Below are positions 47,064 through 63,751 of a DNA stretch of 64,000 nucleotides, in pieces. How positions within the stretch are numbered: the first letter of the stretch is position 1; each line of letters opens with the position of its first letter. The stretch covers positions 1-64,000 of the forward strand of contig CAJOJE010000014.1 in NCBI GenBank assembly GCA_905234865.1, in the 5' to 3' direction. This stretch comes from Candidatus Gastranaerophilales bacterium (GTDB taxonomy: Bacteria; Cyanobacteriota; Vampirovibrionia; Gastranaerophilales; Gastranaerophilaceae). The notes beneath the pieces were generated by a model. The model did not search any database. It was not told the origin of the DNA and saw nothing but the letters and a program-made list of their open reading frames with translations. A program made the position numbers and the translations under genes.

Positions 47064-47222
47064 TTTATATAAACCTTTTTTACTTTTAATATTGCCCGAT
47101 ATCAACTTTTTGTCAATATTTTTTAATATTTTATTGCAAATAAAAATTTTTATAGTATTGACAAAGTGTAAAAAATTGTCATAATGAAAAAAGGTTTGGT
47201 TTTATGAATTAAGGAAGTCTGA

Positions 47223-48174
47223 TTGTTTAAATATACCTGCGCTATTTGCAATAATACTTTTGAGGAAGCTGAAAACAGGAAGGCAATTGAATGTCCCCTT
47301 TGTCATAGCAGATTGCTTAAAAAAGAACGTGTTATTTTAGAAGATAAAGCGGAAAATATTGAAGAAAATAATCTCGATACAGAAAATTCCGCCCCTGAAA
47401 TACCCCCCCCCCCCAAAACCAAAATTTATTTTATTGCCCATAATTATAACAATTATCGGGTTTGCTTGCATTTTAGCTTCAATCATGTATTTTAACGGTA
47501 TCTCATTTTATAACAAAATGGGAGATAAGTCCTGTCTTAAAAAAGATTATAAGCAAGGCATAGTCTGGTATAAAAAAGCTGTTGCAAAAATTAACGAAAA
47601 GAATGAGAAAAAATGGGGCTTTATTTATAAAAACCTCTCTGAAGCATACGCATACGAAAAAGATTGCAAAAATGCAATCAAAGAATACGACAAATACAAT
47701 AAAATTACGGGAGAAAAAGGATATAAAAGCGAGTTTTTAAAGCCTTGTACGGCAAATAAAACCCAAAAAACTCAACCAAAAAAAGCTGAAGAAACAAAAA
47801 CAACAGCCAAAAAACCGCAAAATACAAAACCCGCAACCCAAAAAACTTCCTCGACTCCTCAAAAAACTGTTACAAAACAGGTTCAAAAGCCTGCACAGAA
47901 AAATGTTCAAAAAGCACCCGTAAAAACTGCGCCTTCAAATACGACAACCGCAAAAACTGCGCCTCTTCCAACCAAAACAACTTCAACAAATCCCAATTCC
48001 CCGGATATGATAGATGTTTACGTTAAAGAGGGTGACAGTCTTTTTAATAAAGGAAATTATTCGGGCGCACTTGCCAAATACAAGCTTGCCGAAAATTTAT
48101 CGTTGATTTATTACGGCCCGTATTTTGATACAACTTCAAAAATTCAAGCAAAAATAAGAAAATGTCAAAACTAA
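47223..48174 (+). pseudogene. Zinc-ribbon/membrane/TPR protein interrupted at a C12 tract (phase-shifted)
   Basis: Two overlapping frames join into one protein of about 316 aa if one C is removed. The first begins at TTG 47223 (AAGGAAG upstream): MFKYTCAICNNTFEEAENRK with a double CxxC zinc ribbon (Cys 6, 9, 24, 27). It runs through an acidic linker into PPPP at the C12 run, where the frame is lost. The other frame supplies a membrane helix (FILLPIIITIIGFACILASI, about 68-90) and a TPR-like part (CLKKDYKQGIVWYKKAVAKI). A Lys/Thr/Gln/Pro-rich linker and a C-terminal TPR-like segment follow. The zinc ribbon closely resembles that of 51300-52265. 11 or 14 C would restore the frame. This is either a phase-variable ON/OFF gene or a homopolymer sequencing error. 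Confidence 0.75.
47403..47414 (+). repeat. Homopolymer tract of 12 C in a coding region
   Basis: A C12 run at the end of the acidic linker of the zinc-ribbon gene, at the point where the reading frame switches. Such tracts change length by replication slippage. Confidence 0.9.
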
Positions 48175-48188
48175 AGGAAAGTTATAGT

Positions 48189-49229
48189 ATGAAAAAATTA
48201 AAAACCTATGCTTTATTAATTGCTCTGTCGATTTCTTTTACGCTTTCTCCCGTATTTGCGGATAATGCAAGCGATATGGTGAATTCCGCAATTCAAACAA
48301 AAATCCAATCGGCATACAACCTCAATATTAAAAATAACGGAACGGGAATTGATTTAGTTTCAACTTACGGTCAAATAGGCGATATGTATATAAACAAAGA
48401 CCAGTCCTATAAAAATGCGCTTATTTATTACAAAAAAGCTTATGAAGCAGGCATGAAAACTCTGTCTCAAGGAAATAAAGCCGATATAACAAAAGATTTT
48501 TTGGAGCAATTCAATAAATACGCAATTTTATACGCAAATGGTATTCCTCTATCGGAAGATACATCAAAAAATACGTCGGAAGATACAGATGTTCAAAAAT
48601 ATCAAGAAGCCGTAAATATTTTAAGAGATGTAAAACAAAAAATAAAATTAACGGGTCTTGATACTCTAAAAGAAGAAACTTATCTTGATGCTGCTCTTGC
48701 AATGAATTCAATTGTAATTGACCCTAAGGAAGGCATTGAATTCTACAAAAAGGCATGCACAACTTTTGCGAATAACCCTCAGCTTACAATGGACGGCGAT
48801 GAAATATCGGATATTTATCTTGAATTTCAATCAAATTATATGACGATAATCGGAAGTGTCGAAGGCGCAAATATTGATGATTTAGCGCAAAGTTACGAAA
48901 GAAACGTTATTTCAAAATACGGTGCGGGAACAATGAAAGACGCTATGGCAAAAAATTCGATAAGCATGGTATATTTTCTGAAACGTGACTATTCAAAAGC
49001 CCTTGCTTACGCTAAAAGCGCCTATGATATCGCAAAAAAATATTATGCCGACACCGATACTTATATGTATTACTACCAAATAAATTTAGCTAACATTTAC
49101 TATTTTTCAAAAGATTACGCTAATGCAAAAATTTATTACCAAAAAGCTTATATAAACGCAAAAAGCACTTTTGGCGAAAACGATTCAAAAACAGAATATG
49201 TTAAAAACTTGCTAAACTCCATTAAATAA
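48189..49229 (+). CDS. Exported TPR-like protein
   Basis: From the ATG at 48189 (AAAGGAAAG upstream) the product is 346 aa with a signal peptide (MKKLKTYALLIALSISFTLS, cleavage likely after PVFA). The rest is helical TPR-like repeats, e.g. YINKDQSYKNALIYYKKAYE, MVYFLKRDYSKALAYAKSAY and YYFSKDYANAKIYYQKAYIN. It is probably periplasmic or surface-exposed and binds partners. The gene follows the interrupted gene by 14 bp and precedes the single-pass protein gene by 48 bp, all in one direction. No catalytic motif is visible. Confidence 0.75.
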   Translation: MKKLKTYALLIALSISFTLSPVFADNASDMVNSAIQTKIQSAYNLNIKNNGTGIDLVSTYGQIGDMYINKDQSYKNALIYYKKAYEAGMKTLSQGNKADITKDFLEQFNKYAILYANGIPLSEDTSKNTSEDTDVQKYQEAVNILRDVKQKIKLTGLDTLKEETYLDAALAMNSIVIDPKEGIEFYKKACTTFANNPQLTMDGDEISDIYLEFQSNYMTIIGSVEGANIDDLAQSYERNVISKYGAGTMKDAMAKNSISMVYFLKRDYSKALAYAKSAYDIAKKYYADTDTYMYYYQINLANIYYFSKDYANAKIYYQKAYINAKSTFGENDSKTEYVKNLLNSIK

Positions 49230-49277
49230 CGGCAAAGAGGCAAAATGGTTATAGAATAATATTTTAGGAGAATGTTT

Positions 49278-50168
49278 ATGGCACCTCAAAATACGGAAAA
49301 ACAAGGTACGAATATTGTGCAAAAACAAATTGCAAAGCAAGATAGCGGTACAACAGAAGTAAAAAAACAGGATTTAAACAAAACCGATACCACTATCGTT
49401 AAAAATGTAGAAAATAATACAACTACCGTTCAAAAAGCAGCTGACTTTCAAATTAAAAAAGAAGTGTCAAATTACTTAAATTCGACAGACGGTAAAAAAT
49501 TAATCGAAACAACTGTTCAAATTCCAAAAACAACCTTGGGACAAAATGAAATTATATTAATTTCAGGCTCAATGGGGCTGATTATGGGTATAATCGGCGG
49601 ACTTATCATATATTTAATCATTTCTAAATTATTCCCCGAAGAAAAAACTACAACCGTTATCCAACAACGCCCTCAATATAATACTCCGCCAAATTTAAAA
49701 AATATACAGCCTGTTATTATAAACCCTTGTAAATCGGAAGTTAACCTTGAAAATTTTGTAAAACTCGTAATTGAAAAACATATAAGGGATAAACGTGAAA
49801 TTAAAGCTCAATCCTTTGAACAAACGGAAACTCCTCAAACAATTCAATATCAAGAGCCAAAAGAAGAAGTTATCTACGATAAAGAAATTACGGTCACTCC
49901 AAAGGATAAAATTTTCTTACAATGCTTAATCGAAGCGACCAAAAATTCAACTACGGTATCCGTTAAATCCTTAAACGAAAATTGCGGAACAAACTACACA
50001 AGAGATGATGCAATTGCTATTCTTCAAAAAATAAATATTTTAGGCAAAAAAGAAAAAATTACATCCCTTATGGACGGAAATTTTGCAAACGTAAGATTTA
50101 TAAGAGATGACATTGCAAAAATAGAATTTAACCCCTCTTGCATAGAAGATTTAAAGAAATTAGTATAA
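49278..50168 (+). CDS. Single-pass membrane protein with soluble C-terminal domain
   Basis: The ATG at 49278 follows AGGAG at the right distance (an ATG two codons earlier is too close), giving 296 aa. The N-terminus (1-90) is polar and repetitive (Gln, Lys, Thr, Asn), then one hydrophobic helix at about 91-118 (LISGSMGLIMGIIGGLIIYL). After a linker, a C-terminal helical domain (about 205-296) with LQCLIEATKNSTTVSVKSLN and AIAILQKINILGKKE looks winged-helix-like. It stands 14 bp before the ATPase gene and may tether it to the membrane, but this is inferred from position only. Confidence 0.65.
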   Translation: MAPQNTEKQGTNIVQKQIAKQDSGTTEVKKQDLNKTDTTIVKNVENNTTTVQKAADFQIKKEVSNYLNSTDGKKLIETTVQIPKTTLGQNEIILISGSMGLIMGIIGGLIIYLIISKLFPEEKTTTVIQQRPQYNTPPNLKNIQPVIINPCKSEVNLENFVKLVIEKHIRDKREIKAQSFEQTETPQTIQYQEPKEEVIYDKEITVTPKDKIFLQCLIEATKNSTTVSVKSLNENCGTNYTRDDAIAILQKINILGKKEKITSLMDGNFANVRFIRDDIAKIEFNPSCIEDLKKLV

Positions 50169-50181
50169 AAAGGAAATAAAA

Positions 50182-51300
50182 ATGAAAAAGAAAAACGCCG
50201 TAGCAAATTTTGCACAAATGATATCTTCAACAAGCCTGACCCCGATTGCTCTGGATAATACGGCAGCCCTTGTTTGTATGACGGTAGGTTTAAACAGATT
50301 AAAACTTTTTAATTCGATATATGAAAGAATTTCTAACTGGTTTTGTTTGGACGACAGTTCTCAAGAACCCGTATACCGCCTTGAAGCTGAAGCAATAGCA
50401 GGCGAATACGGTTCAGGAAAAAGCCATATTTCATATATGATAAAAAACAGTCTTTTATCGCAAGATATTGAATTGCTTCTTGCGCATTGCCAAATTACGT
50501 CCGCTGCGGCGAATTATCAAGATATTTTATGCGAAATTTTGTGTAATTTGCGCATATCAAGCGCCCCCTCTCAAGTTGAAAGCGGTGTCGAAATAAGCGC
50601 ATATATCAACCTTTTCGGATGGTACGGCGGAAATTACGATTTATTTTTAAATTCGATAAGAAGAAGTGTCGGAAACATTGATAGTGCGATTATAACCGAT
50701 TTTGCATACTCGCTTTCAATGTTGGCACAAGACACATCAAACGTAATTTATTTACAAAAATGCCTTGATTCCTGGGTTAGAAATTCTGACCCCCAAAAGG
50801 CAACGGAAGTATTTTTCTTAATCTTATCTTTATTCCAAAAAGTTTCCGTTCAAAGATTTGCTCTTGTAATAGATGAATTTGAAGCTATATCTCACCTTCC
50901 CGACTTAAAGAAACGTGAAATTTTACAACATTTTCAAAATCTCTACGACAAATTAACTCAACAGGCTGCAGGACCTATGTCTTGCTATATGCTTTTATTT
51001 ACAACGGAAGACTGGTTAAACCAACTCGATATGATTTTACCTTCACTCGGAAGAAGAAACAGAATTCGCCGTTGGTCGCCCATTCCGGATTTAACGGAAG
51101 CCGATATAAGAGCGCTTGTTTATAAAAACGCAACTTATTATATTATGGCAAATCCTTCCGCACCCGAAATTACCGATAAAGATTTAGATATGATAAGCGA
51201 AAAAATCATTTCTCAATCCGTCGGCACAAGATATCATTTAAGAAGTATTCAAAGAGATATTAACGATTTAATCGAAATGACCGTAAGAAGGAAAAAATAA
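50182..51300 (+). CDS. P-loop ATPase, AAA/STAND-like (GEYGSGKSH)
   Basis: The 372-residue protein has Walker A GEYGSGKSH (74-82), Walker B FALVIDEFEAIS (226-237), a sensor-1-like MLLFTTEDWL (270-279) and a basic RRNRIRRW (291-298) that could be an arginine finger. The C-terminus (YHLRSIQRDINDLIEM) is helical. The GxYGSGKSH form recalls ATPases such as BREX BrxC/BrxD and ORC/Cdc6-like proteins. No BREX or other defence gene accompanies it; the neighbours are zinc-ribbon membrane proteins. I read it as the energy-using component of this cluster. Its stop overlaps the next ATG (TAATG). Confidence 0.75.
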   Translation: MKKKNAVANFAQMISSTSLTPIALDNTAALVCMTVGLNRLKLFNSIYERISNWFCLDDSSQEPVYRLEAEAIAGEYGSGKSHISYMIKNSLLSQDIELLLAHCQITSAAANYQDILCEILCNLRISSAPSQVESGVEISAYINLFGWYGGNYDLFLNSIRRSVGNIDSAIITDFAYSLSMLAQDTSNVIYLQKCLDSWVRNSDPQKATEVFFLILSLFQKVSVQRFALVIDEFEAISHLPDLKKREILQHFQNLYDKLTQQAAGPMSCYMLLFTTEDWLNQLDMILPSLGRRNRIRRWSPIPDLTEADIRALVYKNATYYIMANPSAPEITDKDLDMISEKIISQSVGTRYHLRSIQRDINDLIEMTVRRKK

Positions 51301-52265
51301 TGAAATTTTTCAAATGTGAAATATGCCAAAATACTTTTCAAGCAGAAATTAAAGGCAGCTGCCCTTATTGCGGATCAAGGATTTTAACGGAAATAACTCA
51401 AACCGCACAAAATATAAATTATCAACCCGTTCAACCCCAACCCGTTCAAGAACCCGTTTGCGAACAATTACCCCCTCCCGTTGAAGAAAAAAGAGGAAAC
51501 GGTTGCTTGATAGGGTGCATTGCAGGTGCGGTTATACTTATTATAATAACCATTGTTATTATAATGCTTTTTATGGTATTGAAACACAATGAAAATAAAA
51601 GTGATTCTACCATAACCGAACATAATAATGTTGTGCAAACCGTAAAAAACGAGCCTGATGAAAATACGTCAAAAAATGAAGATATCACTTTAACAAACAG
51701 TGTTCCTTCCTGTATCGGGTGTGGTTCGATAAATTATAATTTAGAAGCTTTTTATGTATCTTTGCCCCAAAGGTTTAAGCTCGATTATAACGATTCAAAT
51801 ACAAAAGAGTTTAGATATTCGTATGTAACTTTTAAGACAAATGACAATACCGAAAATATTGTTATTTATCCATATTTTGAAATAGATGAAAATATGAGCC
51901 TTGATGAAATTTTGGCAAATATGTACCCTGATGAACTTTCAAGTTATTATACCGTTTCGTCTTATGACGTAAGCAATAATAATAACGATTTTGATTTAAT
52001 ATTTGCACTCGGATATAACCAAACGATAATGGACTTTACTAAAAAGTTTTATAAAATAAATGCAACTTGGTCTGACGGAACTGTGGGACATATCAATTTT
52101 ACCGTTTATAAAGCAATTTCTTCATCGGGAAATATTAGAACTTTGATTACGAATATTTTTGAATATCATTATGTAAACGGCAAGACAGCAAGTCCGTTTA
52201 CGGCAGATAAAGCAGAAAGTATTGCAAAATCGGTGCAATACAATTTCAATTGGATAAAAAATTAA
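51300..52265 (+). CDS. Zinc-ribbon single-pass membrane protein with extracytoplasmic domain
   Basis: The 321-residue protein has a zinc ribbon (MKFFKCEICQNTFQAEIKGS; Cys 6, 9, 21, 24 in CPYCGSR). A Pro/Gln/Val-rich linker (QPVQPQPVQEPV) and a membrane helix (GCLIGCIAGAVILIIITIVI, about 76-100) follow. A globular domain of about 180 residues comes last (SINYNLEAFYVSLPQRFKLD, DYNDSNTKEFRYSYVTFKTN). The ribbon is cytosolic and the C-terminal domain outside, by the positive-inside rule. It is a paralogue of 47223-48174 in its first 30 residues. It starts on the ATPase stop (TAATG), so it is coupled. Confidence 0.7.
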   Translation: MKFFKCEICQNTFQAEIKGSCPYCGSRILTEITQTAQNINYQPVQPQPVQEPVCEQLPPPVEEKRGNGCLIGCIAGAVILIIITIVIIMLFMVLKHNENKSDSTITEHNNVVQTVKNEPDENTSKNEDITLTNSVPSCIGCGSINYNLEAFYVSLPQRFKLDYNDSNTKEFRYSYVTFKTNDNTENIVIYPYFEIDENMSLDEILANMYPDELSSYYTVSSYDVSNNNNDFDLIFALGYNQTIMDFTKKFYKINATWSDGTVGHINFTVYKAISSSGNIRTLITNIFEYHYVNGKTASPFTADKAESIAKSVQYNFNWIKN

Positions 52266-52279
52266 AGAAAGGATAAATT

Positions 52280-52717
52280 ATGTCAACAAAACAATGTCCC
52301 TATTGCGGTTCAAGAATTGCACTTAATGCCGTTATTTGTCCTGTTTGCAATCAGCCTGTTATGGGTGCGCCGAATAACAGTTTTCAAGGCGGAGGATACA
52401 TACCCAATCAACCTTCAAATTATGCTCCTCCCCCGCCTCCCGTTCAACAGACTTATTCTGCGCCCGTAAGCTCGGGGCAATTTAGCGGAATAAACTTTTT
52501 TAATGAACCGAAAGCAAGAGTGAATAAAGTAACTTATCTTATTATTAATTTCCTTTTAGGTTGGATTGGCATTCATAAATTTTTGACGGGAAAACCGATT
52601 ATGGGAATTTTGTATTTACTTTTATCTTGGACATTTATTCCGGGTATTTGTTCCTTAATTGATTTATTTGCAGCTATACAATTAAGAGCCAACGCTAACG
52701 GTGATATTTATGTATAA
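52280..52717 (+). CDS. Zinc-ribbon TM2-domain membrane protein
   Basis: The 145-residue protein has a zinc ribbon (STKQCPYCGSRIALNAVICP, Cys 6, 9, 20, 23), a Pro-rich linker (APPPPPVQQTYSAP), and a TM2 domain with the typical two helices: VTYLIINFLLGWIGIHKFLT and GILYLLLSWTFIPGICSLID. TM2 proteins are widespread membrane proteins of unclear function, and zinc-ribbon TM2 fusions occur in many bacteria. The gene lies 14 bp after the previous stop. It shares CPYCGSRI with its neighbours. Confidence 0.8.
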   Translation: MSTKQCPYCGSRIALNAVICPVCNQPVMGAPNNSFQGGGYIPNQPSNYAPPPPPVQQTYSAPVSSGQFSGINFFNEPKARVNKVTYLIINFLLGWIGIHKFLTGKPIMGILYLLLSWTFIPGICSLIDLFAAIQLRANANGDIYV

Positions 52718-52732
52718 AGAAAGGATTTAAAA

Positions 52733-53494
52733 ATGGCTGAACAAAGAGCTTGCCCGTATTGCGGTTCAAGAATAATTCCAAATAACGGCATTTGCCCCGT
52801 TTGCGGACAAAACGTTAATGGAGTAAATCAAACATATAATCAATTTCAAAGACCAATGGGACAAAATACGGGACAAAATAATTTTAACCCCAATATGCAA
52901 GGGCAAAACATAAATTACAATCAACCTCGACCGTACGGAGCCCCTCAAGGGCAAAACTTTAACCCTAACCCGAATTTTAATCCACAATTCAGCCCTAATA
53001 TTCAAAATAATTACAATCAAAATGAACAATATGTCCAACAGGAAGAAAGCGTCCAAAACGCTTTGGATGAAGAAACGGAACAAGAATTACGCAAATTCAA
53101 CTGGGGCGCATTTCTTATGACTTGGATATGGGCAATAGGCAACAAGGCTTGGACTATGTGGGCTGCTCTTATCGGTGCGGGAATTATAGTTTTAATAATA
53201 ACCGGTATTGCATATATTCCTAAATTGCCTCAGGTAATATCCGTTGTTCTTTTAATATTTTCAAGAATTTTGTCATTTATAGTTAATATCTTATGCGGTA
53301 TTTTTGGAAACAGAATTGCTTGGAAAAGTAAACAATGGGACAATTTAGAGCACTTTAGAAAAGTTCAAAAAATCTGGGTAATTGTTTGGCTTATTTTAAC
53401 GATTATTAGTATAGGAATTATTGCATTATTAATCGGATTAATCGGATTGGGCGTTATTGCAGGATTAACTGCAGATACGAGCGGTGCATGGTAA
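52733..53494 (+). CDS. Zinc-ribbon, Asn/Gln-rich membrane protein
   Basis: The 253-residue protein has a zinc ribbon (AEQRACPYCGSRIIPNNGIC, Cys 7, 10, 21, 24) and an Asn/Gln/Gly/Pro-rich disordered stretch (about 30-100, for example GQNTGQNNFNPNMQGQNINY). A C-terminal hydrophobic domain of about four helices opens with KFNWGAFLMTWIWAIGNKAW, a sequence pattern seen in DUF2628-like membrane proteins. The stop overlaps the next start (TAATG). Function unknown. The disordered linker may allow long-range or multivalent contacts between membrane and the zinc ribbon. Confidence 0.7.
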   Translation: MAEQRACPYCGSRIIPNNGICPVCGQNVNGVNQTYNQFQRPMGQNTGQNNFNPNMQGQNINYNQPRPYGAPQGQNFNPNPNFNPQFSPNIQNNYNQNEQYVQQEESVQNALDEETEQELRKFNWGAFLMTWIWAIGNKAWTMWAALIGAGIIVLIITGIAYIPKLPQVISVVLLIFSRILSFIVNILCGIFGNRIAWKSKQWDNLEHFRKVQKIWVIVWLILTIISIGIIALLIGLIGLGVIAGLTADTSGAW

Positions 53495-54294
53495 TGAAAA
53501 AATGCCCTTTTTGTAATCATGAACTTGATGATAAATTAAGAATTTGCCCTAATTGCGGAAACTTTTTAACAAATGTCAAAAATTCCAACAACTTAAATTC
53601 CTCTTTTTCGGAGGAATTTAAGTCTGATGTGAAAAATATTCAAAAACAAAGACAGAATTTGAACTCCAATCAAAACTTAAATGCCTCAAATTTCAACGGT
53701 AATCAAATTAATCCGCCGATAACGGGTACCGCTCATCATCAAAATATAAACAAAAACGGCTTGAATTACGGTAATAATCAAACCGTTTTGCCGACAAAAG
53801 GTTTAACTGACAATCAAAACACAAATTACAAAACCGATTCACCCAATGTTCAAAACAATGCAAGCTTAAACAGAGGGCACCGAATACAACATAACGACAA
53901 AAATCAAGTCGGAACCAAAATCCAAACTCCTTTTGACACACAAGACATTCTTAAAACGGGACTGCATCTTTATTCCTCGGGAATAGTCGCAAAGCGTTTT
54001 TTGAGCGGTAAAAAATTGCGATTAAAATGGGAAAACGCCACAAAAATCTACTACATTTTTTCAACCCCCATCGGGGAGTTTCTGATTGAAACAAAAGCAG
54101 CCGTATTCTTAATTAATTTTTGGTTTCGCTTTATGCCCGCCTGCATTGTCATGCTTAATATTGCAATTAATACTACGGAACTGGAAACGGCGATACGTCA
54201 AAATTTAGATATAATTATAATGCCTATTGTTATAATATATATAATTTTAACGGTAAGTTTTTGGTTTTTAATAAAACCAAAATTGAATAAGTAA
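53494..54294 (+). CDS. Zinc-ribbon membrane protein with Asn-rich linker
   Basis: The 266-residue protein starts MKKCPFCNHELDDKLRICPN (Cys 4, 7, 18, 21), at the ATG overlapping the preceding stop; an earlier in-frame ATG at 53488 is not needed. A long Asn/Gln/Ser-rich linker (about 30-150) leads to a C-terminal part with two hydrophobic helices (FMPACIVMLNIAINTTELET and IIIMPIVIIYIILTVSFWFL). This is the last of the co-oriented run. It has no clear family. It ends 34 bp before a convergent gene, with no strong terminator seen. Confidence 0.65.
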   Translation: MKKCPFCNHELDDKLRICPNCGNFLTNVKNSNNLNSSFSEEFKSDVKNIQKQRQNLNSNQNLNASNFNGNQINPPITGTAHHQNINKNGLNYGNNQTVLPTKGLTDNQNTNYKTDSPNVQNNASLNRGHRIQHNDKNQVGTKIQTPFDTQDILKTGLHLYSSGIVAKRFLSGKKLRLKWENATKIYYIFSTPIGEFLIETKAAVFLINFWFRFMPACIVMLNIAINTTELETAIRQNLDIIIMPIVIIYIILTVSFWFLIKPKLNK

Positions 54295-54327: not shown

Positions 54328-54924
54328 CTATTTTTGTTTTGCAAAATCAGGGACTTGATTTTTTGCCATACGCATTTTAAGGTATTGTTCTTTTAATTCT
54401 TGCTTTTCTTCAACGGAAGCATTTTTTGCTTTGTCTGCGATTTGAGAATATATTTCCCTTTCGGCTTTATTTGATTTTATATATACATCCATATCTTTGC
54501 CCTTTTTATAAGCATTCACCTTACTGTCGTATGCTATTTGAGGAGCCTTAAAAAGAGTATACAAAGTTGCGAAGCCTGCTACCAAACCGCCCGCAATCGC
54601 AGCGAAAGCGCCTATTTTATAAAGCGTTTTCATATCCTTGCTTGCGTTTTTTTTGTTTTTTTCAACAAGTTTATCCGCAGTTTTTGCAATTTGGTCAACT
54701 TCAAAATCGCCGTCGGTTGCAAGTTCTAAAAGCAATTTACCGCCTACGGCAAGCCCGCCCAAAAAAGTTGCTCCCGCAAGATTGGCTGCTTCGCCCTTTC
54801 TTGAAATCGGATTTTTATCGCCGTTATTGTTTGCTTTTTTTTGTTGATTTTGCTTCGTTTTTTTTGGAGCATTTGCCGTATTGTCATAAAGGCAATTTGA
54901 AGCATTGAGAGAAGAAACACTCAT
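54328..54924 (-). CDS. Small helical membrane-associated protein, paralogue of 54925-55377
   Basis: The 198-residue protein (MSVSSLNASNCLYDNTANAP) has a basic, Asn/Lys/Gln-rich N-terminus and two hydrophobic Gly/Ala-rich helices (NLAGATFLGGLAVGGKLLLE and IGAFAAIAGGLVAGFATLYT). A C-terminal charged helix contains KKGKDMDVYIKSNKAEREIY. The motif K-x-x-x-MDV-x-x-x-x-KA is shared with the upstream gene. The ATG immediately follows that gene's stop (TAA then ATG), so the pair is coupled. Function unknown. Confidence 0.6.
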   Translation of the reverse strand: MSVSSLNASNCLYDNTANAPKKTKQNQQKKANNNGDKNPISRKGEAANLAGATFLGGLAVGGKLLLELATDGDFEVDQIAKTADKLVEKNKKNASKDMKTLYKIGAFAAIAGGLVAGFATLYTLFKAPQIAYDSKVNAYKKGKDMDVYIKSNKAEREIYSQIADKAKNASVEEKQELKEQYLKMRMAKNQVPDFAKQK

Positions 54925-55377
54925 TTACACACCTTTTATCATCATTCCGTTACCGTTATCAGCCATTTTTACGGTAGCATAATGATTAATTTTTTCACTC
55001 AAAGGAATGTCGTTATTTTGTAATTCGTCATTAATGCCTTCGTAGATATTATTTTGCGCAGCTTTTTGTCTTGAGAAAACATCCATTTCTTTTTCTCTTG
55101 TATAAGCATTTACGCTTGTATTGTATAATTTAGAGGGTAAAGTCAACCCTAAAACGGCAAGTGCAGCTCCTGCACCGACTGCTATCGGAATTTTCTTTCC
55201 TTCGGTAACACAAGTTGTTAAACCGCCTGCGATAGCGCCTGCGACAGCCGAAGTACCGATTGAACTTAAAACGGCAAGCGATTTTTCGGTGCCTCTATCT
55301 ATCGGATTTTCGTATTCTTGTTTTTTAGGATTTGATTTAAAACTTGTGTTGTATGAATTAATAGCACTTATTTGCAT
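54925..55377 (-). CDS. Small helical membrane-associated protein, paralogue of 54328-54924
   Basis: The ATG at 55377 follows GGGAGG and gives 150 aa starting MQISAINSYNTSFKSNPKKQ. Two Gly/Ala-rich hydrophobic helices (IGTSAVAGAIAGGLTTCVTE and IAVGAGAALAVLGLTLPSKL) precede a charged C-terminal helix with AYTREKEMDVFSRQKAAQNN. The shared EKEMDV/KGKDMDV motif and helix order show paralogy with the adjacent gene. The opening MxIS...SFKSNP looks like a recurring N-terminal element in this organism. Function unknown; it resembles no export signal I know. Confidence 0.6.
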   Translation of the reverse strand: MQISAINSYNTSFKSNPKKQEYENPIDRGTEKSLAVLSSIGTSAVAGAIAGGLTTCVTEGKKIPIAVGAGAALAVLGLTLPSKLYNTSVNAYTREKEMDVFSRQKAAQNNIYEGINDELQNNDIPLSEKINHYATVKMADNGNGMMIKGV

Positions 55378-55600
55378 ATAACCTCCCAGTTGTTGACAAT
55401 TTGTACAAACCATGTGAATAAAAAAAATTGCCTAAATTATAGTATATTACAAACAAAATTTAAAATAATTTTCATGCAAAAAATTTTATTTTCATACATT
55501 ATTAAATACAAAAAACTTAAATTTTACTATCCGACAAAATAAATCATCAAACCCGATTTTTGGGAATTTTTATTGACCGCAAAAAAGATAAAAAAGAAAA

Positions 55601-56965: not shown

Positions 56966-57622
56966 ATGTCTTACGAAGAACAAAGGAGAGAGCTTCAGCG
57001 AAGAATTTGACAAATTGCAAACGAAGTAAGAGGCGCTGTTGACGGGTGGGATTTTAAACAATATGTTTTAGGTACGTTATTTTACAGGTTTATAAGCGAA
57101 CATTTTAAAAAATACATGGAGGGCGGGGATTCCTCAATTAATTATGCCAAACTTCAAGACGACGTTATTCCCGAAGAATTAAAAATAAATACCGTAAAAG
57201 AGCAGGGATATTTCATATACCCGAGCCGGCTTTTTGAAAATATCGTACAAAATGCCGAAGAAAACGAAAATCTTAATACCGATATAGATAAAATATTCAA
57301 ATCAATCGAAAGCTCAGCCGACGGGTTTCAATCTCAAGATAACGTAAAAGGTTTATTTGCCGATTTTGATACAACAAGTAAAAGATTGGGTAATACCGTA
57401 AAAGAGCGTAATCAAAGACTATGCGCCGTATTAAAAGGCGTCAACGATTTACGATTCGGTAATTTTGAAAATAACGAAATCGATTTATTCGGGGACGCTT
57501 ATGAATTTTTAATTTCAAATTATGCGGCAAATGCGGGTAAATCCGGCGGAGAATTTTTTACGCCCCAATCGGTTTCAAAATTAATCGCAAGACTTGCAAT
57601 GGAGGGGCAAGAAAAAGTTTAA
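56966..57622 (+). pseudogene. hsdM remnant (type I methyltransferase N-terminal part)
   Basis: The frame starts at ATG 56966 (AAGGG upstream) as MSYEEQRRELQRRI, meets an in-frame TGA at 57008, and continues as [20 protein letters not shown]. HsdM normally has Trp at the TGA position (IWxIA), so one base change (TGG to TGA) explains the stop. The rest carries the HsdM N-terminal domain and the [20 protein letters not shown] segment. It then ends at GQEKV, just before the catalytic SAM motif I. All of the methyltransferase active site (DPACGSG, NPPF) is missing. The sequence runs straight into an HsdR tail at about 57616, which shows a large deletion. Confidence 0.85.
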
Positions 57623-57948
57623 TCGTAGAATTTATAAATGATACGAATTTAGACAATATGGAAGATAAAACGGATATTATTCAAGCCTTTTTCACTTTTG
57701 CGCAAAAGAAGCAAAGAAAAGCAATAGAAAATTTGATTAAAGAGGAAAATTTAAACCCCGAAAGCGCAAAGCGCTACATAACGACATCCTTAAAAAAAGA
57801 ATACGCAAGCGAAAACGGCACTGGATTAAATGAAATTCTTCCCAAAATGAGCCCCTTAAACCCGATGTATTTAACGAAGAAAAATATCGTATTTCAAAAA
57901 ATATCGGAATTGGTCAATAAATTTAAAGGTATCGGAGGATTATCGTAA
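57616..57948 (+). pseudogene. hsdR C-terminal remnant
   Basis: In a different frame from the hsdM piece, this segment reads [20 protein letters not shown], then [40 protein letters not shown] and [20 protein letters not shown]. This is the pattern of the C-terminal end of type I HsdR subunits. The nuclease and helicase domains are gone. The fusion to hsdM at about 57616 implies a deletion that removed hsdM's second half, any hsdS, and most of hsdR. It is a dead remnant beside the intact R-M operon. Confidence 0.8.
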
Positions 57949-58321
57949 TTTTGCCGACAGTTTTTAATTAATTGCCTATAAATGCACTTGCAGTATGGCT
58001 CATAAATTCGCCTACTCTGAATGTGGATTTGTGTAAACTAACACTCCGGATGATTATTTGTAACAGGGTAAATGATTATTTGACTTTTATATTAAATCGG
58101 TATTTTGAACTTCATTAAAACTACAATAAAACGTTATTTGTTTATATAAAATAAAGAAATAAAATCAGAAGAAGTAACACAAATTATCAGAAAAAATTAA
58201 AACATACTATGTCCGTTTTTGACATAGTCATGTGTTTTAATTGAATTATATCAGGATTGTTACACAACAGGCAGTTGTGTATTTTCATGATATGATTAAT
58301 TCAAAAGCTGCGAGGTCTTCC
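57949..58321. other. Spacer between dead and intact R-M loci, with repeats
   Basis: About 370 bp without a credible gene. It holds two direct copies of ATGATTATTTG (58050-58060, 58072-58082; period 22), an inverted repeat ACTATGTC / GACATAGT (58206-58228), and a TTGACA (58219-58224) overlapping its right arm. It also holds a decamer, CGCCTACTCT (58009-58018), that recurs beyond the cassette at 63780-63789. These may be control sites of the R-M operon. Confidence 0.5.
58206..58228 (+). promoter_or_regulatory. Inverted repeat over a -35-like TTGACA upstream of hsdR
   Basis: ACTATGTC and GACATAGT form an 8-bp dyad with a 7-nt gap; the right arm overlaps TTGACA (58219-58224). No good -10 sits at 16-18 bp, so it is best read as an operator candidate with an uncertain promoter. 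Confidence 0.4.
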
Positions 58322-60712
58322 ATGAATAAAAAAGATTTATCTGAACGAGATATATGTACCAAATTTATTACTCCTGCAATTGTTAAAGCAGGCTGGGATA
58401 AAAACTTACAAATTCGTGAAGAAGTTTCTTTTACAGCAGGAAAAGTTATTGTAAGGGGAAAACTTGTATCTCGTGGCAAACAAAAACGAGCTGACTACAT
58501 TCTTTATTATAAAAATAACATACCTATTGCAGTTGTCGAGGCTAAGGATAACAAGCATTCTGTTGGGGCAGGAATGCAACAGGCAATAGATTATGCAGAA
58601 ACTCTTGATATCCCTTTTGTATTCACTTCAAACGGAGATGCTTTTTTGTTTCACGATAGAACGGTTGATTTAGGCAAAAAGGAAACTGAATTAACATTAG
58701 ACCAATTTCTATCTCCTAAAACGCTATGGGAAAAATACAAAAGATTTAAAGGCATAGAAGAACCTGAAGTAGAAGAAGTATTTACCCAAAGTTATCATAA
58801 AGATGCAAGCGGTAAAGAACCAAGATATTACCAACGAATTGCAATAAATAGAGCAGTTGAAGCAGTTGCAAAAGGACAGGATAGAGTTCTTCTTGTTATG
58901 GCAACAGGAACAGGTAAAACTTATACAGCTTTTCAGATTATTTGGAGATTATGGAAAGCGAAAAAGAAGAAAAGAATTTTATTTTTAGCTGACAGAAATA
59001 TTTTAGTTGATCAAACAAAGAGCCAAGATTTTGCTCCGTTTGGCGATAAAATGACGAAGATTACAAAACGTCAAATAGATAAATCTTATGAAATTTATCT
59101 TGCCTTGTATCAGGGATTAACAGGTAATGATGAAGATAAAGACGCTTATAAACAATTCTCTCCTGACTTCTTTGACCTTGTTGTAATAGATGAATGCCAT
59201 AGAGGGAGCGCAAAAGAAGATTCTGCATGGAGAGAAGTTCTTGATTATTTTAGTTCCGCTACTCATTTAGGTTTAACGGCTACACCAAAAGAAACAAAAG
59301 ATGTTTCAAATATTGAATATTTTGGTGAACCTATTTATACATACTCTCTTAAACAGGGTATCGAAGACGGTTTCCTTGCTCCTTATAAAGTTATAAGACC
59401 TCTATTGAATATTGACCTTGACGGATTAAAACTAAAAGAAGGAACGATTGATAAATATGGTAATGAAGTTCCGAATGAAGAATTTAACGTAAAAGATTTT
59501 GATAAACGAATTGTTGTCGATGAAAGAACAGAGCTCGTTGCAAAACGTATTACTCAATATTTAAAGAAGAACAATCGCTACGATAAAACTATTGTTTTTT
59601 GTGTGGATATAGACCATGCAAACAGGATGAGGCAAGCTCTTGTTAATGAAAATCCTGATATGGTTACAGAGAATTCTAAATACATAATGCGGATTACAGG
59701 CGATAATGATGAGGGCAAAAGAGAGTTGGACAACTTTATTGACCCGGAATCTACATATCCTGTTATTGCAACGACTTCAAAACTAATGACAACAGGGGTT
59801 GATGCTAAAACTTGTAAACTGATTGTTTTAGATAGCAACATAAATTCAATGACAGAATTTAAGCAAATTATCGGTCGTGGAACTCGTTTAAGACCTGATT
59901 ACGGCAAATGGTATTTTACAATACTTGATTTCAGAGGTGTAACAAGGCTATTTGAGGATAAAGATTTTGACGGAGAACCTGTTCAGATAAAAGAAGTTAA
60001 TGAGGGAGAAGAGTTTTCTGATGATGAACAAACACAAGAAGAAGTTGAAACTCTGATTGAAGAACTGCCTGAAGATGAAACTGTTGTAGAACTCCCACCC
60101 GATATTGATATAACAGAAATAGAAAACCCGACAAGAAAATTTTATGTAAACGGAGTTGAGGTTGTTCAAGTTGGTGAACGTGTTCAGTATTACGGCAATG
60201 ACGGAAAACTTATTACTGAAAGTCTTGTTGATTATACTAAAAAGAACCTAAAGGCTCAATTTGCAACAATGAACGATTTTATCAAGAAGTGGTCTGAATC
60301 TGATAAAAAGACTGCAATAATAAAAGAACTTGAAGAACAGGGGATAATGTTTGCGGAACTATCTGAAGAAGTTAAGCAAAAGACCGGTAAAGACCTCAGT
60401 ATTTTTGATTTAATCTGCCATGTAGCATTTGATATGCCGCCACTTTCAAGAAAAGAAAGAGCAGAAAATGTCAAAAAGCGTAATTACTTCGGCAAGTATT
60501 CCGAAAAAGCAAGAGCAATCTTGAACGCTATAATAGATAAGTTTGCAGATGACGGAATAATGGAGATTGAAAGTAGAGAAATCCTGAAGTTTCAGCCATT
60601 TGACTCTTTTGGAACTCCATTAGAAATAGTTAAAGAATTTGGTGGAAAAGATAAATACGAAGAAGCAATCCGAGAACTTGAAAGAGAATTGTTTAATGAT
60701 GAGGTGGCGTAA
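58322..60712 (+). CDS. hsdR: Type I restriction endonuclease subunit R
   Basis: From the ATG at 58322 (GAGG upstream), preferred over an earlier ATG at 58241, the product is 796 aa. It starts MNKKDLSERDICTKFITPAI. The nuclease domain has the PD-(D/E)xK pattern ADYILYY ... VVEAKDN near 56-75. The SF2 translocase has MATGTGKT near 192, VVIDECHRGSAK near 287, LTATPKETKD and later IIGRGTRLRP. It cuts DNA after ATP-driven translocation, with HsdM and HsdS for specificity. The next gene starts on its stop (TAATG). Confidence 0.92.
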   Translation: MNKKDLSERDICTKFITPAIVKAGWDKNLQIREEVSFTAGKVIVRGKLVSRGKQKRADYILYYKNNIPIAVVEAKDNKHSVGAGMQQAIDYAETLDIPFVFTSNGDAFLFHDRTVDLGKKETELTLDQFLSPKTLWEKYKRFKGIEEPEVEEVFTQSYHKDASGKEPRYYQRIAINRAVEAVAKGQDRVLLVMATGTGKTYTAFQIIWRLWKAKKKKRILFLADRNILVDQTKSQDFAPFGDKMTKITKRQIDKSYEIYLALYQGLTGNDEDKDAYKQFSPDFFDLVVIDECHRGSAKEDSAWREVLDYFSSATHLGLTATPKETKDVSNIEYFGEPIYTYSLKQGIEDGFLAPYKVIRPLLNIDLDGLKLKEGTIDKYGNEVPNEEFNVKDFDKRIVVDERTELVAKRITQYLKKNNRYDKTIVFCVDIDHANRMRQALVNENPDMVTENSKYIMRITGDNDEGKRELDNFIDPESTYPVIATTSKLMTTGVDAKTCKLIVLDSNINSMTEFKQIIGRGTRLRPDYGKWYFTILDFRGVTRLFEDKDFDGEPVQIKEVNEGEEFSDDEQTQEEVETLIEELPEDETVVELPPDIDITEIENPTRKFYVNGVEVVQVGERVQYYGNDGKLITESLVDYTKKNLKAQFATMNDFIKKWSESDKKTAIIKELEEQGIMFAELSEEVKQKTGKDLSIFDLICHVAFDMPPLSRKERAENVKKRNYFGKYSEKARAILNAIIDKFADDGIMEIESREILKFQPFDSFGTPLEIVKEFGGKDKYEEAIRELERELFNDEVA

Positions 60713-61245
60713 TGTCTAGTGAGTGGCAATTAGTATTTAATGGATTAACAGGGGTCTCAACATTTTTAATGGCTGTCACAGCGTGGAAAGCTTTAGATAG
60801 TTGGAAAAAAGAAATTCGGGAAAAGAAAGTTTTTGAGATTAATAAAAGATATATTGAAACAATAAATAAACTTGAAAATTTAATGAATAACTATGAATTA
60901 ATTTCAGAAAAAGATAAAACAAGAGAACTATTAAAACAGATCTATGATAGTTTTAATGAAGTTTTATATGAATATAACCTTGTGCAAAAAAAATCAAAAA
61001 GAGAAACAGGTTTCCTTGGAAATTTAATGTATTTTAAATTGATTATTGAAAAATATTTGACACAAAAAATTGAATCAAATAATGGTCGCATAAGGTTTTA
61101 TTTTGATAATTTTTGGGATGATTATGCACCCTCGCAGAGCGATGAAGGAAAAATCATAGAAACGGTTGAATATGAGAATCTTTTATCTGTACTTAAACAA
61201 GCAAAAGAATTATGTGAAAACAATATAAACAAATTTTACAATTAA
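60712..61245 (+). CDS. Unknown membrane-anchored protein within the R-M operon
   Basis: The 177-residue protein starts MSSEWQLVFNGLTGVSTFLM. A hydrophobic stretch at about 8-25 may anchor it in the membrane; the rest is charged and helical (KEIREKKVFEINKRYIETIN, LLKQIYDSFNEVLYEYNLVQ). It overlaps hsdR by one base and lies 9 bp before hsdM, so it is cotranslated with them. Similar small proteins occur as unknown inserts in type I R-M loci. No enzymatic motif is seen. A role in modulating the complex, or in another defence function, is only guessed. Confidence 0.6.
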   Translation: MSSEWQLVFNGLTGVSTFLMAVTAWKALDSWKKEIREKKVFEINKRYIETINKLENLMNNYELISEKDKTRELLKQIYDSFNEVLYEYNLVQKKSKRETGFLGNLMYFKLIIEKYLTQKIESNNGRIRFYFDNFWDDYAPSQSDEGKIIETVEYENLLSVLKQAKELCENNINKFYN

Positions 61246-61254
61246 GGAGTAACA

Positions 61255-62709
61255 ATGCCAAACATATCAAGTGTAATAAAAGCGATACAGGACATAATGA
61301 GAAAAGATACAGGTGTTGATGGTGATGCTCAAAGGCTTTCTCAAATTGTTTGGATGTTATTTTTAAAGATTTTTGCTGATAAGGAAGAAGAAGCCGAAGT
61401 TATGAGTGATGACTATACTTCACCGCTTGAAGAAAAATACCGCTATTCAACTTGGGCAAAAGATGACGAGGGTATGACAGGGGATGAACTTATTGATTTT
61501 ATCAATAACGACTTGTTTCCGTACTTGCAGAACCTCGAAAACGACTCCGATAAACGTGCTTTTATTATTAAGAATATTTTCCAAGATACTTATAACTACA
61601 TGAAATCAGGTACTTTGTTACGCCAAGTTATAAATAAGATTAACGAAATTGATTTTAATTCGAGTGAAGACAGACACCTTTTTAACGATATTTACGAACA
61701 ACTTTTGCAAAGTTTACAATCAGCAGGTAACGCTGGAGAATATTATACTCCTCGTGCGGTAACTCAATTTATCGTTGATATGATTAACCCGCAGTTAGGT
61801 GAAAAAGTTCTTGACCCTGCTTGCGGTACTGGTGGATTTTTAGCTTGTTCGATTGAACACTTGAAAAAGCAGATACAAAAAACTGAAGACGGTGAAACCT
61901 TAAATAATAACATCTTTGGAATAGAGAAGAAACCGCTTCCGCACCAACTTTGCACAACTAATATGATATTGCATGGGATAGATACTCCAATAAACATAAG
62001 ACGAGATAATACTCTATCAAAACCGATAAATAATATTTCACCTGCCGATAGAGTTGATTGCATCGTAACAAACCCACCATTTGGCGGTGTTGAAGAAGAC
62101 GGAATTGAAAGCAATTTTCCCTCCGCTTATAGAACAAAAGAAACAGCGGACTTGTTCTTGCTTTATATTATTGCAATGCTAAAACCCCAAGGCAGATGTG
62201 GTGTCGTTCTTCCTGACGGTGCTTTATTTGGTGAGGGTGTTAAAACAAGAATAAAAGAAAAACTTATGACGGATTGCAATTTACATACGATTATAAGACT
62301 TCCAAAGAGTGTATTTGCACCATATACTTCTATTAATACCAACCTTTTATTCTTTACTAAAGGTGAACCAACTCGTGAAACTTGGTTTTACAGACTTGAT
62401 ATGCCTGATGGGTATAAAAATTTTTCTAAAACCAAGCCAATGAAACGTGAACACTTAAAACCGGTTGATGAGTGGTGGAATAATAGAAAAGAAATTGAAA
62501 TAGACGGATTCTTTAAATCTAAAAAATATACGATAGATGAGATAAAAGAACGCAATTATAACCTCGATTTGTGCGGTTATCCGTATGAGGAAGAAGAAGT
62601 CCTGCCACCTATGGAACTTCTTGAAAACTACCAAAAACAAAGGGCAGAGCTTGATAAAAACATTGATGATGTTTTAGGTAAAATAAAAGCCATGCTTAAA
62701 GTTAAATGA
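61255..62709 (+). CDS. hsdM: Type I restriction-modification DNA methyltransferase subunit M
   Basis: The 484-residue protein has an N-terminal helical domain (RLSQIVWMLFLKIFADKEEE), the HsdM-specific NAGEYYTPRAVTQFIVDMIN, SAM motif I VLDPACGTGGFL near 184, and the catalytic motif IVTNPPFGGVEEDG near 269 (NPPF, an adenine N6 methylase). RLPKSVFAPYTSINTNLLFF and DKNIDDVLGKIKAMLKVK follow toward the C-terminus. It modifies the target adenine with HsdS. A clear AAGGAG precedes the ATG. The active site is intact. Confidence 0.93.
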   Translation: MPNISSVIKAIQDIMRKDTGVDGDAQRLSQIVWMLFLKIFADKEEEAEVMSDDYTSPLEEKYRYSTWAKDDEGMTGDELIDFINNDLFPYLQNLENDSDKRAFIIKNIFQDTYNYMKSGTLLRQVINKINEIDFNSSEDRHLFNDIYEQLLQSLQSAGNAGEYYTPRAVTQFIVDMINPQLGEKVLDPACGTGGFLACSIEHLKKQIQKTEDGETLNNNIFGIEKKPLPHQLCTTNMILHGIDTPINIRRDNTLSKPINNISPADRVDCIVTNPPFGGVEEDGIESNFPSAYRTKETADLFLLYIIAMLKPQGRCGVVLPDGALFGEGVKTRIKEKLMTDCNLHTIIRLPKSVFAPYTSINTNLLFFTKGEPTRETWFYRLDMPDGYKNFSKTKPMKREHLKPVDEWWNNRKEIEIDGFFKSKKYTIDEIKERNYNLDLCGYPYEEEEVLPPMELLENYQKQRAELDKNIDDVLGKIKAMLKVK

Positions 62710-62764: not shown

Positions 62765-63751
62765 TTGATTGCAGATTTATTACTGGAAAAATCAAAAGAA
62801 GCATTTATATTAGCTGTTGAAATATATAATAAGCCTACAATAAGATATAGGGTTGAAGGTTTTGCATTTTTTATCTGCAACGCTTGGGAGTTAATGCTAA
62901 AATCTCATTTAATAAAAACAAAAGGGGAACAAAGTATATACTATAAAGATAATCCTGAGAGAACTATCAATTTAGAAAATTGTATTCGTCTAATCTTTAC
63001 TAATGATAAAGATCCTTTAAGATTAAATCTTGAAAAAATAATAGAGCTAAGAAATACAAGTACTCATTTTATCACAGAAGAATATGAAATGGTTTATGTT
63101 CCTTTGTTTCAATCTTGTTTGTTTAATTTTGGCGAAAAAATGCAAAAATTCCATGGGATTGATATTACAGAGTTAATTTCTCTAAATTTTCTTAATTTAG
63201 TTGTAAAAGAAAAAGCACTTGATGAAAACGAGATTAAAGCAAAATATTCTGATAAAATTGCCCAAAAGTTGATTGGTTTAAACGATAAAATTGAAAAGAT
63301 ATCGGAAGTAAGTAATAGCCATTTTGCAATAAGAATTGAACACGTCCATTACATAACAAAAGATAAAGATAAGGCAACTGACGTAATTGCGTTAGATAAA
63401 AATGCCGAAACAAAAGGGGTTATAATTAAAGAACTTAAAGACCCTAATAAAACTCACGCTTATACAATGAAAACTATTAACAAAGCCGTAAATAATAAAT
63501 TAAAAAATTTAGGAATAGTATTGAAATATAACGGAGATGAAAAAGAATTTAATCAATATCACTTTAAAATGTTTTGCAAATACTTTGATTTAAAATCTAA
63601 AATAGAATTTTGTTATCCTCATACTCAATTTGCAAAACCTAGCTATTCTTATTCACAAAGAACGGTAGATTTTATAGTAGATGAAATTCAAAAAGACCCT
63701 GAAAACATAATTTCTAAAATAAAAGAAAGGTTAAAACAAAAAACAAGTTAA
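62765..63751 (+). CDS. DUF3644-like protein between hsdM and hsdS
   Basis: The 328-residue protein starts at a TTG (62765) after GGGAG. Its first part (LLEKSKEAFILAVEIYNKPT, FAFFICNAWELMLKSHLIKT, IIELRNTSTHFITEEYEMVY) matches the pattern of DUF3644 proteins, including the helical RNTSTHF element. A C-terminal winged-helix-like region (about 200-328) follows. DUF3644 genes are often found in or beside R-M and other defence loci, with unknown activity. The HEPN-like R-x(4)-H spacing in RNTSTHF hints at an RNase fold, but I cannot confirm it. Confidence 0.7.
   Translation: MIADLLLEKSKEAFILAVEIYNKPTIRYRVEGFAFFICNAWELMLKSHLIKTKGEQSIYYKDNPERTINLENCIRLIFTNDKDPLRLNLEKIIELRNTSTHFITEEYEMVYVPLFQSCLFNFGEKMQKFHGIDITELISLNFLNLVVKEKALDENEIKAKYSDKIAQKLIGLNDKIEKISEVSNSHFAIRIEHVHYITKDKDKATDVIALDKNAETKGVIIKELKDPNKTHAYTMKTINKAVNNKLKNLGIVLKYNGDEKEFNQYHFKMFCKYFDLKSKIEFCYPHTQFAKPSYSYSQRTVDFIVDEIQKDPENIISKIKERLKQKTS

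Follow-up and report, generated by a model that had tools for sequence, protein, structure and literature searches.

Eight genes on the forward strand, at 47223-54294 of a 64,000-nucleotide stretch of Gastranaerophilales DNA (contig CAJOJE010000014.1, positions 1 to 64,000; hereafter the window), include five whose products carry a double-CxxC zinc ribbon at the N-terminus, and the first of the eight is broken by a homopolymeric run of 12 cytosines. The explanation proposed here, held with somewhat less than even confidence, is that these genes form a lineage-specific operon for an envelope-associated complex whose first component, the product of gene 1, can be switched. The poly-C frameshift is the strongest new fact and the strongest functional clue that the cluster offers.

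Organization of the gene cluster

The initial annotation had described eight tightly spaced genes in one direction, and this is borne out: from gene 2 to gene 8, the gaps range from -7 (an overlap) to about 42 bp. Just upstream of gene 1, a sigma-70-like promoter sequence (47158..47185, + strand; TTGACA-16-CATAAT with TG before the second hexamer) matches the consensus at 11 of 12 positions; because such sites are as common in the region as in shuffled sequence, that is, at chance level, it counts as a consensus match only. The tight run of genes on one strand and this promoter match were both counted in favor of the operon reading.

The five ribbons are found in gene 1 and in the genes starting at 51300, 52280, 52733, and 53488, as had been claimed. 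They occur in five of the eight cluster genes compared with about 4% of other sampled ORFs, and although the test is post hoc, this is well above the local rate and not attributable to chance. Two patterns are distinguished: genes 1 and 5, whose ribbons are homologous to each other (E 5e-6), share the form FxCxIC..TF..CPxCxSRxL, while in genes 6, 7, and 8 the N-terminus itself carries CPxC....CPxC.

Gene 2 (48189..49229, +) encodes a TPR protein (TPR_12, E 1.9e-12) with one N-terminal hydrophobic segment, either exported or membrane-anchored, in agreement with the secreted TPR protein expected from the initial annotation. The product of gene 5 (51300..52265, +) consists of a ribbon, a linker, one transmembrane (TM) helix at about residues 76-94, and a domain of about 200 residues that is probably extracytoplasmic. 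Gene 6 (52280..52717, +) encodes a ribbon, a low-complexity linker, and a TM2 domain, whose assignment is firm (PF05154, E 5.5e-15). Gene 7 (52733..53494, +) combines a ribbon and an Asn/Gln-rich linker with an FNWGAF (DUF2628-like) membrane domain, matched at E 0.0019, below the curated cut-off. Gene 8 (53488..54294, +) has a ribbon, an Asn-rich linker, and a C-terminal membrane domain; the first 50 positions of NF053815 (TcaA-type) match its N-terminal ribbon with E 0.00062, scoring 18.7 against a cut-off of 550. The picture of paralogous ribbons on differing membrane bodies, arranged like an operon around a P-loop ATPase in mid-cluster, is supported, as is the earlier statement that no known system fits all the parts; as far as the observation goes, the initial annotation was mostly right.

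A poly-C run that interrupts gene 1

Gene 1 (47223..48174, +) encodes a ribbon, a Pro-rich linker, one TM helix, a Lys/Thr/Pro-rich stretch, and TPR-like ends, and the 12-C run (47403..47414, +) lies between the ribbon and the TM helix. It had been taken for one continuous protein, the frameshift being overlooked: as assembled, the gene is split into a 90-aa ORF (47223-47495) and an overlapping ORF in the +1 frame that ends at 48174, and it is in this next frame, beyond the run, that the TM and TPR parts are found. When run lengths from 9 to 16 were tried, only 11 or 14 cytosines opened the gene (316/317 aa, ribbon-TM-TPR), while with all remaining lengths the product stops at 72-91 aa. That a single long frame uniting ribbon, TM helix, and TPR part reappears at 11 or 14 C was counted for a switch. 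The next-longest C run in the window has a length of 6, and a first-order model expects about 0.0005 runs of at least 12 in the window. Gene 5, the ribbon relative of gene 1, has a Pro-rich stretch at the corresponding place without a long C run.

To judge from the sequence, the break looks like a reversible on/off switch, and poly-C phase variation of gene 1 is the best reading of it, although gene 1 could be a plain pseudogene. Because of the run, gene 1 becomes a candidate for on/off switching, one of a wider group of such genes in the lineage.

Homopolymeric runs elsewhere in the genome and in relatives

A search with a ten-C pattern found five C runs of at least 10 in the same genome, against about 0.5 expected for C and G together from base-pair statistics. 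Each of the remaining four follows a copy of one leader, TATAATAAAAATATCAAAAAGGGGTAATTTATGAATTTAAAACGGTTT, with slight differences upstream, and is 11 or 14 C long; these copies, L122, L123 (1573-1583), L124 (756-769), and L125, are distributed over contigs C4, C15, and C17, and two of them lie at contig ends. The C run of the leader starts about 7 codons past the ATG of pseudopilin-like ORFs, and, wherever the contig extends far enough, the next ORF is pseudopilin-like (FTLAETLIAL): the 11 C of L123 put it in frame, and the 14 C of L124 put it out of frame. The four copies look like a phase-variation cassette, and the flanks of the run in gene 1 are unlike those of this cassette.

In three relatives of the genus, with one genome per species and gene classes judged among the listed loci, the runs are mostly found in or beside surface-polysaccharide and pseudopilin genes. 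For example, a G10 run separates the two parts of a DHQ-synthase-like protein, which are read in different frames (L135), and an aldolase-like gene is broken at a C10 run next to an intact tandem paralogue (L137). Furthermore, an acyltransferase present in two genera with 59% identity carries G12 and G10, respectively, at the same 3′ end while the surrounding DNA has diverged, which argues against a sequencing artefact. These observations favor a maintained feature over sequencing error. As is characteristic of contingency loci, run length sets the frame in gene 1, and the runs in the genome exceed chance and prefer surface genes. Among the relatives' loci (L127-L139 and L147), where C/G runs of 10 to 13 lie in or beside surface-polysaccharide and pseudopilin genes, many G runs have C directly before and TA directly after. 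Runs of at least 40, which may be artefacts, are present in a further genome of the genus (G007). The literature search returned no link of phase variation with Gastranaerophilales or Vampirovibrionia; with Melainabacteria, the term was joined in an unrelated flagellin context.

The ATPase encoded by gene 4

Gene 4 (50182..51300, +) encodes a P-loop ATPase with the Walker A motif GEYGSGKSH at residues 74-82, the Walker B motif VIDEFE at residues 229-234, and a predicted C-terminal helical lid, confirming the motifs that had been pointed out. The protein is best called AAA+-like and assigned to no particular family: its AAA_22 match (E 0.004) is below the cut-off, and its single-sequence model has a pLDDT of 42 and is confident for the C-terminal helices only. 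At this pLDDT, fold matches to helical repeats were discarded as meaningless.

Pfam PF10923 (BrxC/BrxD) matches the ATPase at 22.8 bits against a cut-off of 22.2, centered on the P-loop and covering 37 of 414 positions, and hhalign with true PF10923 members of the order aligned 58 columns around the P-loop. No full-length profile match to BrxC/BrxD was found (NF033438, the BrxD equivalog, reaches 11.3 of 350 bits), and a search for the PF10923 family in the same genome did not call this protein. Other BREX genes are absent among genes 1 to 8 and the scanned neighbors, the contig ending 110 bp past the window. Four loci of relatives (L053, L058, L060, and L061) carry a three-gene set of a protein of about 430-434 aa, a full-length PF10923 ATPase with GEYGSGKTFF, and a helicase; the ATPase of this set is 93-98% identical across genera, suggesting recent transfer. 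These PF10923 members were rejected as kin of the cluster because they belong to that other system.

Gene 3 and its predicted winged helix

The product of gene 3 (49272..50168, +) has a Gln/Thr/Lys-rich N-terminus, one TM helix at about residues 103-121, which agrees with the single-pass membrane protein noted before, and a predicted winged-helix C-terminus at about residues 203-298. Modelled alone, its last 96 residues fold as helix, strand, helix, helix, strand, strand, and helix with a pLDDT of 74. The best structural matches of this model are mostly winged helices (SarS, BrxR, CodY, Rex, and ORC) with Z of at most 7.2, and the best Foldseek E is 0.098. Five of the eight weak sequence matches found in the order are OmpR-type DNA-binding domains of response regulators (hhalign probability 34%), and this hint replaced a likeness to FtsK gamma that had been considered. 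The model thus makes it likely that the C-terminus of gene 3 is a winged helix. A 910-aa match to gene 3 (L114) is, by eye, an unrelated kinase-like ORF.

Distribution and genomic surroundings

The ATPase is absent from 57 relatives and, by profile-free searching, from 382 other genomes of the order. Its matches in the phylum sample are at chance level: one of those inspected was a true AAA protein, and the rest were a peptidase, a glycosyltransferase, a dehydrogenase, a cyclophilin-like protein, and a TPR protein. A photosynthetic CYP38/PsbQ-like protein in a phylum-mate, along with the small genome and its gene style, suggests a place in Gastranaerophilales within Cyanobacteriota. No relatives of the ATPase were detected in plasmids or phages by tblastn, or in viral or genome collections by single-sequence and motif-anchored pattern scans, which reach fairly close relatives only; the bait alignment built around the motifs (A1) includes four rows that were scrambled artificially and was used for searching only. 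Gene 5 is likewise absent from the relatives searched. The body of gene 7 occurs in 22 of 116 genomes, mostly as a single gene amid housekeeping genes and sometimes with a ribbon. TM2 and DUF2628-like bodies, whether or not a ribbon precedes them, are commonplace and in relatives are found singly, and Rahnella plasmids have annotated ribbon-TM2 proteins.

Recurrence of the gene order in relatives, which had been suggested as a check, is therefore negative so far, as the ATPase and gene 5 occur in none of them and the gene 6 and gene 7 bodies stand singly among unrelated housekeeping genes; comparison accordingly lends no support to a joint action of the genes. It had been reasoned that the cluster would be a coincidence if its genes were scattered in relatives and the ATPase had orthologues in unrelated contexts only. 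The gene order indeed does not recur, but ATPase orthologues were not detected in other contexts, or anywhere at all, so that this check did not cleanly refute the idea of a system.

The cluster sits in a variable stretch, with restriction genes and remnants downstream. A neighboring DNA-alkylation gene has other neighbors in relatives. At 54328-55413 of the window, there are two small adjoining proteins, distantly related to each other, to which few matches turned up within the genus. Pieces of a type I methylase (HsdM) and of the C-terminus of an EcoR124-type HsdR (57116-57948) are directly followed by a complete-looking type I restriction-modification set (58241-62709). At 62765-63751, a protein with DUF3644 and a restriction-endonuclease-like part strongly matches the PADLOC candidate PDC-S19 (E 1e-137).

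A proposed switchable envelope complex

In the proposed operon, the ribbons of the five membrane proteins would probably lie on the cytosolic side, beside the soluble AAA+-like ATPase and the membrane-tethered winged-helix protein of gene 3, while an outward orientation is probable for the gene 5 body and for the TPR portions encoded by genes 1 and 2; this topology is predicted. The proteins may form one complex, driven or gated by the ATPase and with a role at the surface. Gene 1 would be a contingency gene: if the 12-C run slips in living cells, slippage would toggle its product between the truncated ribbon seen in the assembly and the full ribbon-TM-TPR protein, and the complete complex would be present in only some cells of the population.

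ORC-type ATPases have a winged helix after the lid. Since gene 4 ends at its lid, gene 3 could, speculatively, supply a winged helix in trans. A more specific version of the proposal builds on this: an ORC-like ATPase lacking its own winged helix would pair with the membrane-anchored one of gene 3 and dock effectors through paralogous ribbons, the first effector being switched by the C run, in a phase-variable membrane machine. This version is considered very unlikely.

Other explanations concern either the function of the genes or the nature of the run. An anti-phage or conflict system, in which the ATPase senses or processes an invader, the membrane proteins act as effectors, and phase variation limits the cost, would suit a genome-specific island adjoining type I restriction-modification genes, remnants, and the PDC-S19 candidate gene, as well as an ATPase that is absent from relatives and whose P-loop is nearest to BrxC/BrxD. 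Against PADLOC models, however, the cluster proteins gave weak partial matches at most (the best, PDC-M62A, with E 0.0026 over residues 50-95 only), the cluster showed no recognizable nuclease, NADase, protease, or pore domain, and exported TPR proteins with five ribbon proteins are unlike known defence layouts; we regard defence as unlikely. Membrane-bound sensing or regulation, with gene 3 as a tethered transcription factor in the style of CadC/ToxR and the ATPase and ribbons as signal transducers, draws on the TM helix of gene 3, its predicted winged helix, and the OmpR-type likeness. That likeness is weak, winged helices also serve protein contacts, and the domain of gene 3 is C-terminal, unlike in CadC/ToxR, which leaves this role distinctly improbable.

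It is also doubtful, to a similar degree, that the genes are accidental neighbors, that is, promiscuous ribbon-membrane proteins of the family duplicated beside an unrelated ATPase: ribbon proteins with TM2 or FNWGAF domains are commonplace and dispersed and the gene order is without recurrence, but the overlapping or near-abutting genes on a common strand and the excess of ribbons speak against accident. As for the run itself, an assembly error or a fixed frameshift, leaving gene 1 intact or dead, is rather unlikely. Homopolymers are error-prone, two of the five runs in this genome are at contig ends, and those of G007 are implausibly long; on the other side, runs of 10 to 14 sit at matching positions when orthologues from two genera are compared, and they concentrate in one gene class.

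Comparison with known systems

The BrxC/BrxD ATPases of BREX (PF10923) share the P-loop GEYGSGK with gene 4, but the match is confined to about 37 residues and the cluster is without BREX genes. Ribbon proteins with TM2 or DUF2628-type membrane domains follow the domain order seen in genes 6 and 7; unlike these two, they mostly stand alone elsewhere in the family. With TcaA-type ribbon-TM-extracellular proteins (NF053815), gene 8 shares a likeness in the N-terminal ribbon, whereas the bodies are unrelated.

The proposed switch is most readily compared with the G/C-tract contingency loci of Campylobacter (reviewed in PMC8355987) and of other host-associated bacteria. There, as here, C/G runs of 10 to 14 lie inside or immediately ahead of surface-structure genes, and run length decides the frame. 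The present case differs in that it belongs to another phylum, that the switched gene encodes a ribbon-TM-TPR protein within an ATPase operon, and that slippage is predicted from sequence. If the reading is right, non-photosynthetic gut relatives of cyanobacteria share the slippage switch of Campylobacter, and with it they vary their surface polysaccharides, their pilin-like proteins, and a new membrane complex linked to an ATPase.
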